A DNA stretch of 49,200 bases from Oscillospiraceae bacterium (GTDB lineage: Bacteria; Bacillota; Clostridia; Oscillospirales; Oscillospiraceae). This document shows, piece after piece, positions 26,614 through 34,825 of the stretch. Location of the stretch: the NCBI GenBank assembly GCA_021205095.1, contig JAJPYE010000033.1, positions 1 through 49,200 on the forward strand. Reading direction: 5' to 3'. A model generated the notes under the pieces. It saw only the letters and a program-made list of their open reading frames with translations, was not told where the DNA came from and searched no databases. Both the position numbers and the translations under genes were made by a program. Position 1 is the first letter of the stretch. Every line of letters begins with the position of its first letter.

Positions 26614-28644
26614 TTACTCGGCGTCGGCCAAAGCCTTGGCCTCTTCAATGATCTTCTGCTGGACGTTGGCGGGGGTCTCGTCGTAGCGGATGAAGTCCAG
26701 GGTGAAGGAGCCGCGGCCCTGGGTAATGCTCCGCAGGTCGATGGCATAGGTGGTCATTTCCGCCATGGGAACCTCTGCTTCCACGATCTGCATACCGTCC
26801 TGTGCGGTCATGCCCAGCACAGTTCCGCGACGCTTGGAGGGAATGTCCGACATGATGTCGCCCAGGTTCGCGTCCGGCACGGTGACTTTCAGCAGACCAA
26901 TCGGCTCCATGATGACCGGGTTTGCGTTCACCAGCTCCTTATAAGCCAGACCTGCGGCGGTCTTGAAGGCCATTTCGGAGGAGTCAACGGGATGGAAGTC
27001 GCCGTCGTACAGTACGGCCTTCAGATAGACCATGGGATACCCGGCCAGCACGCCCTTGGTGCAGCAATCCCGCAGACCTTTTTCCACGGCGGGGAAGAAG
27101 TTCTTCGGCACGCTGCCGCCGAATACCTCCTCGGCGAAGATCATGTCCTCCTGCTCGCTCTGCGGCTCGAAGCGGATCTTTACGTCCGCGAACTGGCCGT
27201 GACCGCCGGTCTGCTTTTTGTGGCGGCCATGGGTGTCCAGGGTCTTGCGGATCTTCTCCCGATAGGCCACGCGGGCGGGGGACAGCTCTACCTCCACGCC
27301 GAATTTACTCTTCAGCTTGGAGCAGAGGACGTCGATGTGCATATCTCCGGCGCCGGCCACCACCTGCTGGTGGGTCTCCGCGTTCAGGGTGACGGAGAAG
27401 GAGGGATCCTCCTCGTTGAGGCGGGTCAGACCCTGGGCCACCTTGTCGTCCTGGCCCTTCACCTTGGGGGAGATGGCCATCTGATAGCAGGGAACGTCAA
27501 AGGTGATGCCGGGCAGGGCCTCCACCGCGCCGGCGGCGCAGAGGGTGTCCCCGGTCTTGGTGTCGCTGAGTTTGGACACAGCGCCCAGGTCGCCGCAGGC
27601 GATTTCTGTCACCTCGGTGTTCTTCTTGCCCTGCATGGTGTAAATGTGACCCAGCTTTTCCTGCGCACCGCTGCGGGCGTTTGTCAGGGTCAGGTCAGGC
27701 GTCACCTTGCCGGAGACGACCTTAAACAGGGAGAATTTGCCGAACTGGTCGGAAACAGTTTTATATACGATGGCCTTGGCCGGACCGTTGGGGTCAAGGG
27801 CCTCGCCGCCTTCGGAGGGCTGGGGGAAGATGCTGATGGCGGCGTCCAGCAGCACGCGGGTGCCAAGACCTGTGAAGGCGCTGCCGCAGTAGACCGGGCA
27901 GATGGCACATTCTGCCACGCCGGTGCTGAGCGCGCCGGAGATCTCCTCCGGGCTAAGCTCCATGGTCTCGAAGTATTTGTCCATCAGCTCCTCGCTGGTC
28001 ACGGCGGCGGACTCCGCAAGCTCGGTGTACAGCTCGTCAAGTCTTGCGGTCATGGAGTCGGGCACGGGGATCTCCACCCGCTTGGTTCCCTCCATTTTAT
28101 AGGCCTTTTTGGTGATGACGTCCACGATGCCCACATATTTGTCCCCGTCCTTGATGGGGGCGGACATAGCACAGACGGAGGCGCCGAATTTCTCCCGCAG
28201 GGCGTCGAAGGTGCGGTCGAAGTCCGCATGCTCCTCATCCAGCTTGGAGATGTATATGGCACGGGGCTTATTAGCGTCCTGGAGATATTTCCAGCTCTTT
28301 TCCGCGCCCACGTTCAGCCCGTCCTTGGCGGAAACGCAGATCACGCCGCAGTCGGCCACGCGCAGAGCCTGGTATACCTCACCGGCGAAATCAAAGAATC
28401 CCGGCGTGTCGATAATGTTGATTTTGTTGCCCTGCCAGTCGACATACATGGCGGCGGAGGCGATGCTTATCTGACGGCGGATCTCCTCCGGATCGAAGTC
28501 GGAGACGGTGTTGCCATCAGCTACCCGGCCCATACGGTCGGTCATTCCGGCCACGGACAGCATACTCTCCGCCAGAGAGGTCTTGCCGTTGCCGCCGTGT
28601 CCCAGCAGGCAGATGTTGCGGATGTTATTCAATGTATAGCTCAT
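26614..28644 (-). CDS. Elongation factor G-like GTPase
   Basis: A 676-residue translational GTPase with all five EF-G domains: the G domain with P-loop GHGGNGKT (15-22) and DTPGFFDF, the domain II barrel, domain III, domain IV with HGRHKKQTGGHGQFADVKIRFEP, and domain V ending FIRYDETPANVQQKII. It belongs to the diverged group of second EF-G copies rather than the main FusA: the guanine-specificity motif is SKLD instead of NKMD. The function of this group is not firmly known. An AAGGAGA site lies ten bases before the ATG, behind a good promoter. No ribosomal genes surround it. Confidence 0.87.
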   Translation of the reverse strand: MSYTLNNIRNICLLGHGGNGKTSLAESMLSVAGMTDRMGRVADGNTVSDFDPEEIRRQISIASAAMYVDWQGNKINIIDTPGFFDFAGEVYQALRVADCGVICVSAKDGLNVGAEKSWKYLQDANKPRAIYISKLDEEHADFDRTFDALREKFGASVCAMSAPIKDGDKYVGIVDVITKKAYKMEGTKRVEIPVPDSMTARLDELYTELAESAAVTSEELMDKYFETMELSPEEISGALSTGVAECAICPVYCGSAFTGLGTRVLLDAAISIFPQPSEGGEALDPNGPAKAIVYKTVSDQFGKFSLFKVVSGKVTPDLTLTNARSGAQEKLGHIYTMQGKKNTEVTEIACGDLGAVSKLSDTKTGDTLCAAGAVEALPGITFDVPCYQMAISPKVKGQDDKVAQGLTRLNEEDPSFSVTLNAETHQQVVAGAGDMHIDVLCSKLKSKFGVEVELSPARVAYREKIRKTLDTHGRHKKQTGGHGQFADVKIRFEPQSEQEDMIFAEEVFGGSVPKNFFPAVEKGLRDCCTKGVLAGYPMVYLKAVLYDGDFHPVDSSEMAFKTAAGLAYKELVNANPVIMEPIGLLKVTVPDANLGDIMSDIPSKRRGTVLGMTAQDGMQIVEAEVPMAEMTTYAIDLRSITQGRGSFTLDFIRYDETPANVQQKIIEEAKALADAE

Positions 28645-28691: not shown

Positions 28692-28720
28692 ATTATACAC
28701 GATTACAAAATGCTTCGCAA
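28692..28720 (-). promoter_or_regulatory. Promoter of the EF-G-like gene
   Basis: On the minus strand TTGCGA (28715-28720), 17 bases and TATAAT (28692-28697). The leader contains an 8-bp tandem repeat, TGGTACTC twice (about 28664-28679). Confidence 0.7.
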
Positions 28721-28767: not shown

Positions 28768-31359
28768 TTACCTTCCCTGACCCAGAGAAAGGAACGCCAC
28801 AGGCATGGCCCACAGAAGCATATAGGACAGCACGTTCCCCACTGTGGCGGTGTCATAGGAGCCGACCCGGAACAGAAGAAACAGAATCAGAAGTCCCGTG
28901 ATGGAGCCGACAAGAGACAAAATAACGCCGATGCGGCAGGTATTGTACAGCCGGCGACCGGCTTCTACCGCGTCCACCATGGGACCCATGCCCCCACGAG
29001 AGACAATGGCGGCGATGGGACTGTCTTCCTTCTCGGTGGTTGCAGCGATGCGGTATCGATCCTGGAAGCTGGGGAAGTTAAAGTTGTCTGTAGGCATACG
29101 GAATAGCTGACGAATCATCAGCGGCGTGATGTTAAAGTCCCGAATGGCAAACACTGGCTGTGTCTGGCCCTGCAACAGGGTGACGAGGGCGTCCTGCACG
29201 CTGGAGGTGGGGGTGTATTCCAGGGTGAATACTGCCACCAGCTCCTGGTTGATGGCGGTGCAGATGGTGTTTTTGGTGGTCATGTTCTGGGGCAGGCGAA
29301 TCCCCATCAGGTTCATAAACCCGGCGGAGCCGACCAGCACCCGCTCTCCCCGCACCAGTCCGGACAGACCGCCTCCCTCGTGGCACTGAAATTCCTCGAT
29401 GGGAAGGCTTACGTAGCCCCGGCGCTGCATAAGCTCCTGGAAAACGCCGGTCAGGCCGCTGCCGGAAGCCTCCAGCAGACTGTAGGTAGAGGAGATGACC
29501 TTCGGCACAAAGGTACCCTCCTGTATGTTTATCAGGTTCAGCCTGACGGTTCCGGCGGGAAATAGATCCTCATCCGTAATGACCAGACGCTTGTTTTTTC
29601 CAATGCTGGTGCACCCGGCATAGCCCGCCACCGCCGCGCCGGAGGATTGCAGACGCTTGGCCGTGACGGAATAGGGCAGGGGGAAGCTGAGAAAGGCGGT
29701 AAAGGAAGCGCTGACCGACAGCATGGCGGACAGGTTATGAAGAAAGCGGCTGCCGTCCGACAGGGAGGCAAGCACTGCCAGTATCAGGCAGGCGACCAAA
29801 AGAATGGGGGCCGCCGTGGCGTATATGCTCTGGCACATATCCGGCTGTTCGCTGCGCCGGACTATGCCCTCCGGCCCCCGCTGGGAGCGGATCAGATAGG
29901 GCTGCTCGCCGTTTTCCCCGGAGACGACCGAGGCGGCCTTGGAAAAGGAGGCGACCCGCAGCGTCCGGGTCTGGCCCAGGCAGTATCGCCGCTCGCCCCA
30001 CAGGGCGGCGGAAAGGGAGAAAGCCCCTACCGCGCAGAAGGGCAGGCTGTCTCCATAGCCCAGCATGACGAGCAGAGCGTCTATACAACTGAACATCGAA
30101 CCCAGAACGGCCAGACTTTCCGCCCCTGGATGCAGGTCAAAAAGCTGCCTCATTCCTGCGGCCACAATATCCAGAGCCGCTACCATGACAGACAGCGTCA
30201 GAATCAGGCAGGCCCCCGCCTGGACGGCTGTGCTTTGGCCCAGCATACCCGCCATGGGAAGCTGGAGGCTTATCCAGGCCAGCACGACGCACAAAAACAG
30301 GCACACCCTGCACCGAAACCGCAGAGGATGAAGCTGCTGGGCATAGAACTTTCCGGCTTTTTTGGGAGGAAGCTCCGGCTCCTCCGGCTCTTCCACCGGG
30401 TCAGGCCATTTGGCGGCCTCCGCCCGGCGCATTTCCCGCTTTGCAATGAAGGTGGCGGCCTGGCGAACGATGGGCCGCAAAAGCCGTTCCAGCCGGGAGG
30501 CCGGCTGCTCTGCGCCTTCCTCCGACTCCTGGAAATCGTCCTGCTCGTCCAGCTCCTGGGTCTCGTCCTCGTCGGTCAGAAGCTGCCGAAGGGTGCGCCT
30601 GGGCCTGGCTTCTTCCGGCACAGGCTGCTCCCGCCGGAACCGTTGATTTTCAGGGGCGGGCCGTTCTGCGTCCTGGGTCGGCTCCTTTGCGGCGTGCTTT
30701 TCCGCTGCGGGCCGCTTTTGGGCAACACGAATCGGAGGCTCCGAATCCCGGCTTTCGGGCCTGGTCGGGGTCTCTGGCGTGTTTCGCACGGTTTCCGGCG
30801 TGTCTCTGTAGGCAGGGAAGACGCCGGTGGCCTCCGCCTCCCGGCGGACATAGTCCTCAAATCGGGCGGGGCGGGCGGTCTTGGCCGAACGGGCGGACTG
30901 CCGGGCGGGAGCCGTCCCCCAGGGCAGATCCATATCCAGGGTAATGATGCCATCCGGGGATATTTGGGCCTGCTTCCTTGGCTGGGGAGAGGACGTCTCC
31001 GATTCCTTGTCGCTGACAGTCTCGGATTGAGCGTCCTGAGGCTCGCCGGGGAGGTCGGCGGAATCGTCCTGTCCGACCTCCGCCGTCTCGTCCTGCTGAC
31101 TCTCAGATTCGGCGGAAGCGTTCTCACTTTGGGGGGCGGACGCCGCCGGGGCTGGAGGATCCTGCCGGTATTGGCTCATGGCCGCCCGCAGGGCGTTCTC
31201 CAGCGAGCTTGACGGCTTCTGCCGGGAACGGTCGGAGGCGCGCTCCGGGCCGGGGGCGGACTGTGCTTCCCCGTCGGCGTTGCGGTAATCCTCCAGAACG
31301 GTATCCGGCGAATACTCCCCGTAATCCGGCGTAAAATTCATGTGGTCCCGCTCACTCAT
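28768..31359 (-). CDS. Catalytically dead P-type ATPase-like membrane protein
   Basis: An 863-residue protein. Residues 1-345 are disordered, rich in Pro, Glu and Arg. Membrane helices follow at about 351-372, 377-403, 414-435 and 438-455, then two more near 512-570. The rest aligns in order with a P-type ATPase: SFPLPYSVTAKRL where CPCALGLATP stands; ITDEDLFPAGTVRL at the DKTGTLT site (Asp596 kept, KTG lost); EGGGLSGLVRGERVLVGSAGFMNLMGI like the nucleotide domain; then AIRDFN for TGDN and a final membrane pair. With DKTG, TGES and TGDN all absent it cannot pump ions by the usual cycle. Its start overlaps rlmB by eight bases; an ATG at 31341 is an alternative. Confidence 0.7.
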   Translation of the reverse strand: MSERDHMNFTPDYGEYSPDTVLEDYRNADGEAQSAPGPERASDRSRQKPSSSLENALRAAMSQYRQDPPAPAASAPQSENASAESESQQDETAEVGQDDSADLPGEPQDAQSETVSDKESETSSPQPRKQAQISPDGIITLDMDLPWGTAPARQSARSAKTARPARFEDYVRREAEATGVFPAYRDTPETVRNTPETPTRPESRDSEPPIRVAQKRPAAEKHAAKEPTQDAERPAPENQRFRREQPVPEEARPRRTLRQLLTDEDETQELDEQDDFQESEEGAEQPASRLERLLRPIVRQAATFIAKREMRRAEAAKWPDPVEEPEEPELPPKKAGKFYAQQLHPLRFRCRVCLFLCVVLAWISLQLPMAGMLGQSTAVQAGACLILTLSVMVAALDIVAAGMRQLFDLHPGAESLAVLGSMFSCIDALLVMLGYGDSLPFCAVGAFSLSAALWGERRYCLGQTRTLRVASFSKAASVVSGENGEQPYLIRSQRGPEGIVRRSEQPDMCQSIYATAAPILLVACLILAVLASLSDGSRFLHNLSAMLSVSASFTAFLSFPLPYSVTAKRLQSSGAAVAGYAGCTSIGKNKRLVITDEDLFPAGTVRLNLINIQEGTFVPKVISSTYSLLEASGSGLTGVFQELMQRRGYVSLPIEEFQCHEGGGLSGLVRGERVLVGSAGFMNLMGIRLPQNMTTKNTICTAINQELVAVFTLEYTPTSSVQDALVTLLQGQTQPVFAIRDFNITPLMIRQLFRMPTDNFNFPSFQDRYRIAATTEKEDSPIAAIVSRGGMGPMVDAVEAGRRLYNTCRIGVILSLVGSITGLLILFLLFRVGSYDTATVGNVLSYMLLWAMPVAFLSLGQGR

Positions 31360-32092
31360 GGCGCTGCCTTACGACCTCGTACATCAAAATGGCGGCGGCT
31401 GCGGAGGCGTTCAGGGAGTTGACCTGCCCCATCAGGGGGATGCTGACGATAAAATCGCAGTTCTCCCGCACGATGTGGGACAGACCTGCCCCTTCCGAGC
31501 CGATCACGAGGCAGACCGGCCCTTTCATATCCGTATGCCAAAGGCGGCTGTCGCCGCCGGCCTCTGCTCCATAAACCCAAAGGCCCTGTTTTTTCAGCCC
31601 CTGGATGGCGGCTGTCAGGTTTGGCACCCGTGCCACGGGAAGATGCTCGGCGGCGCCGGCGCTGGCCTTGTCCGCGGCGGCGGTGATGCCCGCGCTGCGG
31701 CGCTTGGGGATGATGACCCCGTGCGCTCCGGCACACTCCGCGCAGCGGATAACGGCTCCCAGGTTCCGGGGATCCTCTATGCCATCGCAGACCACCACGA
31801 AGGGATCCTGTCCCAGCTCGGCGGCGCGGGCCAGAATGTCCTCCGGCTGACAGTAATCCTTGGCGGCGGCCACGGCCACAACGCCCTGGTGGGCGCCGGT
31901 GACGCTCATGGCGTCCAGCTTGCGCCGGTCGCACTCCGTCACCACCACGCCCTTATCCCTGGCGCTGGCGGCGATGAAGGCGAGAGATTTGTCGCCGCTG
32001 CCGCGGGCCAGAAAGACCTTATCCAGGCTCCGCCCGGCGCGAAGCGCCTCAATAACCGCGTTTTTTCCCTCTATTATATTTTCTTCCGACAT
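31352..32092 (-). CDS. rlmB: 23S rRNA (guanosine-2'-O-)-methyltransferase RlmB
   Basis: A 246-residue SpoU/TrmH-family (SPOUT) methyltransferase. The N-terminal substrate-binding part starts IIEGKNAVIEALRAGR. The knotted catalytic domain has VVVCDGIEDPRNLGAVIRCAECAGAHGVII (motif 1), LVIGSEGAGL (motif 2) and SIPLMGQVNSLNASAAAAILMYE (motif 3). It methylates G2251 in the peptidyl-transferase loop in E. coli; some relatives have other rRNA targets. Start 32092 matches the family N-terminus; ATG at 32098 is also possible. A weak promoter (TTTTAA, 17 bases, TATAGT at 32111-32116) leaves almost no leader. The pseudo-ATPase gene overlaps its end. Confidence 0.92.
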   Translation of the reverse strand: MSEENIIEGKNAVIEALRAGRSLDKVFLARGSGDKSLAFIAASARDKGVVVTECDRRKLDAMSVTGAHQGVVAVAAAKDYCQPEDILARAAELGQDPFVVVCDGIEDPRNLGAVIRCAECAGAHGVIIPKRRSAGITAAADKASAGAAEHLPVARVPNLTAAIQGLKKQGLWVYGAEAGGDSRLWHTDMKGPVCLVIGSEGAGLSHIVRENCDFIVSIPLMGQVNSLNASAAAAILMYEVVRQRHE

Positions 32093-32148
32093 ATTCATAC
32101 AAAATGTACTATACCACAAACGACTTTATTTTAAAAGAGAAAATTGTG

Positions 32149-32177: not shown

Positions 32178-32195
32178 TGACAGGAGGTGATTCTA

Positions 32196-33056
32196 TTGAG
32201 ATCTTTGATTCAGAAAATTGATAAGTTCTGCTATAGCCATCCCCGGTTTGGCATACCCAGGCTTATGCTGTATATTATCATCGGCAACGCCGTGGTGTGG
32301 CTGTTTGGGCAGATGGACACCACGAACACCCTGTACAGTCTTCTGTATTTCGACCCGGCCCTTTTCTGCAGGGGGCAGGTGTGGCGGCTGGTGACATATG
32401 CCCTGGTGCCGGAATCCAGCGGTCTGCTGTGGCTGGCCATCTCGCTGTATTTCTATTACTTCATCGGTTCCACCCTGGAGCGGGAGTGGGGCGCGGGAAA
32501 GTTCACGATTTATTATTTCTCCGGCCTTCTCATCACGGCGCTGTATTCCCTGCTTGTCTATTGGATATTCCACACCAGGATTCAGGTCACGGCGACCTAT
32601 CTGAATCTGTCCCTGTTTTTCGCCTTCGCAACCCTGTGGCCGGATCAGAGGGTGCTGCTGTTTTTCTTCATCCCCATGAAAATCAAATGGCTGGCCTGGA
32701 TCGACGCGGCCTTCTTTGCCTATGAGGTCATCATATATCTGATTCACGGCTATGTGGCCTATGCCCTGCTGCCGGTGGTGGCGCTGCTGGTGTATTTGCT
32801 GTTCTGTGGTCAGTGGCTGTTTGATTTCTTCCGGCCATCTCATACCCGCCAGCGGGCCAAAACCGTGCAGTTTAAGCAGGCGGCCAAAAAGATACAGCGG
32901 GAGCAGGCCAACCGGCCCTATACCCGCAAGTGCGCCGTCTGCGGTCGGACGGACACGGACTACCCGAACCTGGAGTTCCGCTATTGCAGCCGCTGCGCCG
33001 GGTATCACTGCTTCTGCCAGGATCACATCAACAACCACATTCACTTCACAGAGTAA
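32196..33056 (+). CDS. Rhomboid-like membrane protein lacking the catalytic serine motif, with zinc-ribbon tail
   Basis: A 286-residue protein read from TTG at 32196 (AGGAGGTGA eight bases upstream; a GTG at 32187 lies inside that site). Six hydrophobic helices carry rhomboid landmarks: CRGQVWRLVTYALVPES after helix 1 and YYFIGSTLEREWGAGKFTIYY. Where active rhomboids have GxSGA, this has TATYLNLSLFFAFATLWP, and no matching histidine is seen, so it should not be a protease. The C-terminus holds a cysteine/histidine-rich module, CAVCGRTDTDYPNLEF then CSRCAGYHCFCQDHINNHIH, a probable zinc ribbon on the cytoplasmic side. Inactive rhomboids (derlin, iRhom types) act as substrate binders. Confidence 0.72.
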   Translation: MRSLIQKIDKFCYSHPRFGIPRLMLYIIIGNAVVWLFGQMDTTNTLYSLLYFDPALFCRGQVWRLVTYALVPESSGLLWLAISLYFYYFIGSTLEREWGAGKFTIYYFSGLLITALYSLLVYWIFHTRIQVTATYLNLSLFFAFATLWPDQRVLLFFFIPMKIKWLAWIDAAFFAYEVIIYLIHGYVAYALLPVVALLVYLLFCGQWLFDFFRPSHTRQRAKTVQFKQAAKKIQREQANRPYTRKCAVCGRTDTDYPNLEFRYCSRCAGYHCFCQDHINNHIHFTE

Positions 33057-33090: not shown

Positions 33091-34825
33091 ATGAGCCGGA
33101 AGGATTTTTATCGGGGGCTGTTTAAATTTATTGTCCTCGTCGCCCTTTTGGTGTGCCTTTGTATGCTGGTCTATGACCTGGCGGGGATGCTAGCCGAGGA
33201 GGGGACGGCGCTGGACAAAATGACCATCAGCGCGGCCTATACCTCCCCCACCCCTGTCCCGACGCCTACGGCCTCCCCGGAGCCGACCCCGGAGCCAACG
33301 GCGCTGCCGGAGTTTGAGCCGGTGACGGTGGAATCGGAGGTAATCACCAGCACGTCCATCATGGTGGACGGCGAGGTGGTGGAAAGCTACCAGGCGGACG
33401 AGGATCACTACATCGACTTTGGAGGCGCGGAGGAATACTCCCTGCTGGACGGCATCGTCACCTTCCGGGGCAATAACTTCCGCAATACCGCCAGCTACGG
33501 CGTGACGGAGATCACGGAGGCCGCCTTCGGGGATTACTGGGTCAACTCCACCAGCGGCCTGTCGGACAGCAGCGGCAGCTTTTGGGGCGGCAGCGGCTGG
33601 ACGGGCCAGCCCCTGATCGTGGAGTGGCCGGCGGAGACCAAGGCCATCATGAATATGTACGACTGGGCCAAGGAGAAGGACGGCCTGGTGGAGGTCATAT
33701 ACGCCACCCTGGGGGGCTATGTGTATTTCTATGACCTGGAGACCGGCGAGGCCACCCGCGACGCCCTGAACCTGGGCTATACCTTCAAGGGGGGCGGGTT
33801 CTCTCGACCCCAGGGGCTACCCCCTGCTGTATCTGGGCGGCGGCGTGGTCAACGCCAGCGGCTCCGTTCCCCGCATTATGGTGGTGAGCCTGATCGACGG
33901 GGAGGTGCTGTACACCACCGGCAATGGGGACAGCTTCGCTCCCCGCTCCTGGTACGCCTGGGACAGCTCCCCTCTGGTGGATGCGGAGACCGACCAGCTC
34001 ATCTATCCGGGAGAGGACGGCGTTTTGTACTTAATCAAGCTCAATTCCGACTATGACGAGGCGGCGGGAACCCTGACCGTTGACCCCACGGAGGTGAAGT
34101 TCACCTATACCTCCACCTCGGCGGATAAATACCTTTACGGCATGGAGGACAGCGCCATTATCTGGCGGGGCTATCTGTTCATCGCGGACAACGGCGGGGA
34201 CTTTTTGTGTATAGACCTGAACACCCTGACCATCTGCTGGCGCTTCGACTGCCTGGACGACACCAACTGCACCGGGGTGCTGGAGGTGGACGAGACGGGC
34301 CATCCCTACATATATCTGTCTACGTCCTACCACCTGGGCTTCCGCAGCTATGGCACGGCGGTGGTGCCGGTGTGGAAGATCGACGCTGTCACCGGGGAGG
34401 AGGTTTGGAGCGCGGAATATGACTGCTATTCCGAGTCCGGCCTTTCCGGCGGCGTGCAGGGTTCCCTGGCGCTGGGAACCGGCAGCCTGGACGGCATCCT
34501 CTATGTGGCTATGGCCAGGGAGCCGAACGCCTCTAACGGCCAGCTTCTGGCTCTGGACACGGAGACCGGGGAGGAGCTGTGGACGGTGACGTCCGACAGC
34601 TATTCCTGGTCCTCGCCCACCTGCTTTTACGACACGGAGGGCAACGGCTATGTACTGTATACAAGCTGCATCAACGGAAAAATGTACCTGGTGGACGGGC
34701 TGACCGGCGACGTGCTGGACACCTTCAGCTTCGGCTGCACCATGGAGGCCAGCCCCGTGGTGTATAACAACACCGTAGTCATCGGCACCAGGGGTCAGCA
34801 AATCTACGGCATTACCCTGGAATAA
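33091..34825 (+). pseudogene. Membrane-anchored PQQ-like beta-propeller protein, frameshifted
   Basis: Two frames together encode a protein of about 577 residues. The first gives an N-terminal membrane anchor (residues about 11-34), a Pro/Thr-rich linker (TSPTPVPTPTASPEPTPEPT) and the start of a propeller, ending in frame near 33,795. The second frame resumes at LDPRGYPLLYLGGGVVNASGS and runs to 34825 with repeated blades (NGDSFAPRSWYAWDSSPLVD, LDTETGEELWTVTSDSYSWSSPT). One base too many lies in the G6 run at 33789-33794: with five G the frames join as YTFKGAGSLDPRGYP. This can be a sequencing error, a real inactivation or a slippage site. Function unknown; probably extracytoplasmic binding. 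Confidence 0.75.

Follow-up and report, generated by a model that had tools for sequence, protein, structure and literature searches.

Pseudoenzymes are well known among kinases. Among P-type ATPases we know of only a few, and of none that is near-universal and usually single-copy across a whole bacterial order. A degenerate P4-ATPase domain was described in the apicomplexan guanylate cyclase beta; in the available part of that paper (PMC6592433), the domain is eukaryotic, of the P4 type and fused to a cyclase. A 2023 review of P-type ATPases (PMC10654040) expects more prokaryotic families, and the available portion of its text makes no mention of a pseudo-ATPase family. Likewise, our literature search, which covered sources available in part, turned up no report of a bacterial protein family of this kind. 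The protein analysed here differs from the guanylate cyclase domain in that it is stand-alone, bacterial, of P1B ancestry and kept across an order.

The gene lies in a window of 49,200 nucleotides, the whole stretch of DNA that we analysed, from an Oscillospiraceae bacterium (contig JAJPYE010000033.1). We confirmed the open reading frame of 863 amino acids at 28768..31359 and its overlap of eight bases with the upstream rlmB gene, both as reported in a preliminary description of this DNA. The gene and its parts, rlmB, the EF-G paralog and the promoter-like sites discussed below are all on the minus strand. The protein consists of an N-terminal low-complexity tail (residues 1-340; 30340..31359), recognised by its composition and faster evolution, and a conserved core (residues 346-863; 28771..30324), recognised by P1B ATPase homology and dN/dS. 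No NCBIfam model matched the protein, and no Pfam model reached its cut-off; matches of P0001 to DUF6594 and Syntaxin were below cut-off and were disregarded. Of the Pfam matches obtained with 25 family members, the strongest had an E-value of 1.9e-4 and pointed to a family of unknown function.

A profile of 25 members searched against the PDB returned P1B Cu-ATPases in all of its top seven rows (HMA4 with an E-value of 2.2e-5), and hhalign found similarity to P1B ATPases over the full length (99.9%, E 2e-31, 499 columns), bearing out the earlier suggestion that the protein aligns in order with a P-type ATPase. The family profile also finds CopA-type proteins outside the order, with up to 121 bits. 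The likeness to P1B metal ATPases (the CopA/CopB/HMA4 group) comprises 499 collinear columns, the N-domain fold and the second Gly of GxG. Unlike them, the protein lacks TGES, CPC, DKTG, GDGxND and the HP His, its A domain and the end of its P domain are shortened, and a low-complexity N-tail stands where P1B ATPases have metal-binding domains. We built two structure models, both on shallow alignments of the window protein and related loci only. The N domain (residues 604-714; 29218..29550) was the only block modelled with confidence (block mean pLDDT 57-83 and 69-92), and Foldseek identified it as a P1B N-domain fold; because the rows were drawn from the Foldseek top 1000, this single domain fills them. 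No contrary fold emerged, so the expected P-type ATPase-like structure was found for the part that could be modelled confidently. Model confidence was low for the membrane part and the P-domain remnant (mean pLDDT 47 and 54); this low-confidence model contains eight long helices, and hydropathy peaks are located at residues 352-370, 383-401, 416-434 (extending to 447), 512-530, 543-561, 812-830 and 839-857. We consider the descent of the family from P-type ATPases confirmed at the level of sequence profiles, and for the N domain also by the models.

Catalytic motifs were counted in an alignment of 80 members, sampled across the order, with four canonical P1B controls; L167, in which no clear member was found, and L171, which is split, were omitted. 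DKTG, TGES, CPC, GDG[IV]ND and the His of the N-domain HP motif were each present in 4/4 controls and in 0/80 members. The segment aligned with GDG[IV]ND is missing in 80/80, since the stretch from D741 to M5 has been shortened to 67-74 residues in the members versus 102-107 in the controls. The A-domain loop measures 54-83 residues (median 61) in the 80 members versus 137-138 in the four canonical P1B ATPases; in the window protein, its remnant between M2 and M3 covers residues 455-512 (29824..29997) as a short loop from which TGES is absent. The preliminary description had listed the losses of DKTG, TGES and CPC and suggested searching relatives for uniform loss of DKTG, and these counts agree with the losses throughout, as they do with the RDFN that it gave for the TGDN position: R740-D-F-N743 (29131..29142) occupies the TGD position, with D741 kept in 75 of the 80 members. 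TGDN occurs in a single member (L179), away from the motif column. Two of the described replacements had to be shifted, however. The DKTGTLTxG position corresponds to T595-D-E-D-L-F-P-A-G603 (29551..29577), which in our alignment places T595, and not D596 of the described DEDL, in the phospho-Asp column. Similarly, CPC aligns with A551-S552-F553 (29701..29709), and the FPLP (559-562) taken as its replacement lies just behind. Elsewhere in the family, the residues in the phospho-Asp column include T, S, R and K, and D in 15/80; L099, one of those with D, reads VDAKDLFPKG, apparently a remnant of DKTGTLTKG. The main lineage carries the signature DxDLFPxG and RDFNITP, and the conserved residues among the 80 members are G677 (80), G664 (79), Y715 (76), D741 (75), W850 (73) and F600 (72). 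Since the phospho-Asp, TGES and GDGxND are gone, the P-type phosphorylation cycle should be unable to run; judged from these motifs, the protein very probably has no P-type pump activity, and metal transport is unlikely because CPC is gone.

The loss of pumping could instead have accompanied a change of enzyme, in which DKT became DxD and the P-domain remnant came to work as a HAD-type phosphatase. DxD is a hallmark of HAD phosphatases and phosphomutases, and D596 (61/80), D598 (60/80), both together (52/80) and D741 (75/80) would suit such a conversion. However, D596 is one column past the phospho-Asp, the Thr of HAD motif II is kept in only 34/80 members, motif IV (GDGxND) is deleted in 80/80, and the alignment does not uphold D596 and D598 in the deep branches. 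The failure in the deep branches together with the absence of motif IV weakens the phosphatase reading, which we regard as very unlikely.

The main rival to a scaffold or adaptor, the role we favour (see below), is a ligand sensor, in which the N domain would bind nucleotide, or the membrane part metal, and the state would be read out through the N-tail. A sensor would account for the preserved N-domain fold with G664 in 79/80 and G677 in 80/80 members, and for the middle Pro of CPC, still present in 48/80. Against it, the HP His is found in 0/80, the residue before its column is Glu in 4/80 and Gly in 53/80, the first G of GxG remains in only 35/80, and CPC as a whole in 0/80. We find a sensor unlikely.

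The same losses could in principle mark a P-type ATPase that has decayed recently and is on its way to becoming a pseudogene. To see how far the family extends, we searched related genomes. A first search found a family match in 134/149 relatives. With a 62-row profile, 226/245 sampled genomes of the order matched at E<=1e-50, including 179/185 of those of good quality; six of the 19 genomes that failed to match are of good quality. All matching genomes but one had one match each. In a class-wide sample of 291 genomes, with the best four candidates scored per genome, 12/12 members of the order scored 260-653 bits with almost the entire model covered, whereas the family was found in 0/279 sampled genomes outside the order (best 121 bits, with partial coverage of the model; three match-less genomes are without listed names). 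We infer that the order holding the family is the GTDB Oscillospirales. The core is under purifying selection, with dN/dS values of 0.059-0.172 in nine of ten within-genus pairs and 0.341 in one, and the N-tail evolves faster (0.24-0.55). One internal stop is listed in each of the family matches of G026, G029, G046, G087, G111, G444 and G480; for the first two (L012 and L014) the stop is near the C-terminus, since the match runs about three codons beyond the end of the ORF. Recent decay would explain why all catalytic motifs are lost, but identical losses and shortenings occur in 80/80 members across the order, dN/dS is far below 1, and matches with an internal stop are few. We rejected this explanation, which is contradicted by the family-wide losses and dN/dS and strikes us as extremely improbable. 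Order-wide presence, low core dN/dS and the losses in 80/80 members together indicate that the family, by its sequences, is an old pseudo-ATPase, a pseudoenzyme clade of P1B ATPases. Purifying selection on the core and order-wide retention also support the earlier proposal that selection has kept the protein for a non-catalytic role.

In a first phylogenetic tree, the pseudo-ATPase family came out as a single clade with a support of 100, on a long branch that falls outside CopA; L111, a very long canonical row, joined the family there with a support of 87. The later tests kept 37 of 47 rows, without L111 and without nine rows from the CopA clade, which is well sampled. Grouping the family with the CopA of the same genome was rejected (p 0.006), and grouping it with two other CopA sets gave p-values of 0.029 and 0.043. 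Constraining it with L345 or L343 was not rejected (p 0.487 and 0.171), nor was constraining it with the CopA of f43, a family of another order in the same class (p-AU 0.215).

The gene neighbourhood bears on both origin and function. In the window, the pseudo-ATPase gene directly follows rlmB (31352..32119; TIGR00186, E 7.7e-67), which encodes a 23S rRNA 2'-O-methyltransferase. The start codon listed for rlmB, a TTG, is probably placed too far upstream, as an ATG lies about ten codons inside, behind the promoter-like site TTTAAA-16-TATAGT (32108..32135); this site, a consensus match only, might drive both rlmB and the pseudo-ATPase gene. Next to rlmB, a divergent rhomboid-family protein is encoded at 32187-33053 (Pfam Rhomboid, E 1e-6), and an ORF at 33091-34056 becomes arginine/glycine-rich toward its end, as if it contained a frameshift. 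Among 90 loci (L031-L048 were omitted as duplicates of other sampled loci), 87 have rlmB directly upstream on the same strand, and the other three are two contig ends and L077, which is without rlmB. In 20 further loci from distant branches, whose positions were compared by eye, rlmB is upstream in 18; the remaining two are a contig end and a stretch without a clear member. The preliminary description had left open whether the overlap with rlmB arose by chance; with 87/90 and 18/20 loci, the link is real synteny. The other flanking genes vary between loci.

Downstream on the same strand, the window encodes an EF-G paralog (26614..28644; NF009381). In 23 of the 56 loci with room, and in seven more with less room, an EF-G homologue lies within 2.5 kb behind the pseudo-ATPase gene and in the same orientation; in 33/56 there is none nearby. 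The EF-G paralog of the window is preceded by a promoter-like site of its own (TTGCGA-17-TATAAT; 28692..28720), likewise a consensus match only, and may for this reason be a transcription unit separate from that which rlmB and the pseudo-ATPase gene may form; this division is predicted from the two promoter-like matches.

A conserved gene order does not necessarily imply a shared function, and the pairing with rlmB could reflect inertia or co-expression and be functionally silent. This explanation concerns the ribosome link alone and is compatible with a scaffold role. rlmB itself is near universal in the class (68/69 genomes). At 28 rlmB loci outside the order, where genes were called mechanically and a few loci gave no downstream ORF, other genes follow rlmB, and rlmB-copA occurs in 1/28, an f43 locus. 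Within f43, 5 of the 14 loci with room (L330-L334), or 5/15 when one cut locus is counted, encode an intact CopA immediately after rlmB; one of these proteins was identified as CopA by TIGR01511 above cut-off. The f43 CopA thus occupies the same place behind rlmB (gaps of -4 to +9 bases) and belongs to the same superfamily as the pseudo-ATPase, but has all motifs intact, and the tree does not firmly group it with the pseudo family. Because it is intact there, a P1B gene can evidently sit behind rlmB without a ribosome function. Against inertia, the pair survives in 87/90 and 18/20 loci while other flanks change, and an EF-G homologue recurs behind it. We give functional silence of the gene order an even chance. 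For the origin of the family, the f43 pair hints at a pump gene at a place adjacent to rlmB, a question that the trees cannot settle. At L312, another locus outside the order, a weakly CopA-like ORF (55 bits) lies on the plus strand ahead of rlmB.

The N-tail contains 15% hydrophobic residues versus 41% in the core, and we judge it disordered by composition only, in line with the preliminary description. Its length of 345 residues is not a family constant, as the tail varies from 11 to 607 residues with a median of 244 (89 members, some cut at contig ends) and measures only 11-14 residues in three deep members (L088, L091 and L093). The 90 rows of the member set are made up of 89 members and the P1B control of L053. 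Near the start of this otherwise variable tail, we found the consensus [YF]SL[ED]xILAE[FY], of which the window protein has a degenerate, docking-like version, YSPDTVLEDYR (residues 16-26; 31282..31314). When partial members and sequences of less than 500 residues were left out, a relaxed pattern matched 22 of 28 members of the genus and 31 of 76 others, versus means of 0.00 and 0.07 for shuffled tails. The N-tails of the genus have a second conserved stretch after the first peptide, for example IAQRSRQIVMEALGE in L007.

We also scanned genomes for the peptide as degenerate DNA, with a backward control. The 60 relatives gave 18 sites, each in a different genome, and the control gave none: one was a pseudo-ATPase and 17 were ends of LspA (signal peptidase II), all from the genus of the window; one of the 17 (L184) is a tail fragment beside masked bases. 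A second set, 71 genomes from as many genera of the family, gave 36 sites in 31 genomes, with one in the backward control. They comprise 24 pseudo-ATPase tails (20 recognised by profile, three that are truncated at contig ends and have rlmB immediately before them, and L269), eight LspA tail ends from eight genera, and four others (L207, L263, L264 and L265), the weakest matches, which read IFxE or ILIE. TIGR00077 identified LspA above its cut-off for two proteins, and the rest were assigned because they resemble the first. Of the 30 LspA loci that best matched a tail-bearing LspA, 6 end in the strict peptide, or about 11 when judged by eye, and most others are short-tailed. Only a subclade of the family carries the peptide in LspA. 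The LspA at L185:418-1533 and its relatives have a long low-complexity C-tail ending in YSLEDILAEFRD, and a gene for an RluA-family pseudouridine synthase follows the gene of the long-tailed LspA. A looser, order-wide pattern without the last [FY] was dropped as too unspecific (65/107 genomes with a site); many of its sites read T[MVI]EDILEE, a sequence known from CorC/CBS-type proteins.

LspA is a membrane protease unrelated to the pseudo-ATPase, and the two have only the peptide in common: the long C-tail of the former ends in the same [YF]SL[ED]xILAEF that the latter carries in its N-tail. The C-terminus of LspA and the N-terminus of P1B ATPases are both cytoplasmic. Because both tails face the cytoplasm, the two peptides could meet the same partner. 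We regard the shared peptide as the strongest functional lead, and as a lead only, that these sequences offer.

We favour the explanation that the pseudo-ATPase is a non-pumping membrane scaffold or adaptor because a membrane anchor, a folded N domain and a flexible, peptide-bearing tail have been kept, and we hold it with moderate confidence. A metal-pump gene would early in the order have lost the core of its A domain, the motifs for phosphorylation and metal binding, and the terminal part of its P domain, but kept its membrane part and N domain. The flexible cytoplasmic N-tail would then present a short helical peptide to a putative cytoplasmic partner; a second partner may be bound by the folded N domain. 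Several findings weigh against this explanation: the very short tails of the three deep members, the lower share of peptide-bearing tails beyond the genus and the degenerate copy in the window, the restriction of the LspA peptide to a subclade, the many scanned genomes that lack a site, the separate promoter-like site of the EF-G paralog, the loci in which EF-G is missing, and the low model confidence for the membrane part and the P-domain remnant. The likely setting would be where translation meets membrane-protein or lipoprotein processing, as suggested by the pairing with rlmB, the frequent EF-G homologue and the LspA peptide in one subclade; a true link to translation or envelope processing is nevertheless a tentative proposal, about which we are more doubtful than confident. 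It would be bolder still, and in our opinion improbable, to suppose that the rlmB-adjacent pump became a dead membrane receptor at the root of the order, tying translation (RlmB and the EF-G paralog) to the membrane, with LspA and the pseudo-ATPase joined or competing through one shared cytoplasmic partner.

The order that holds this family is abundant in animal guts, and it is a clear gap that a gene so well kept there has no name in Pfam or NCBIfam. What the gene does can be tested directly, thanks to its constant position after rlmB and to the peptide that its product has in common with LspA.
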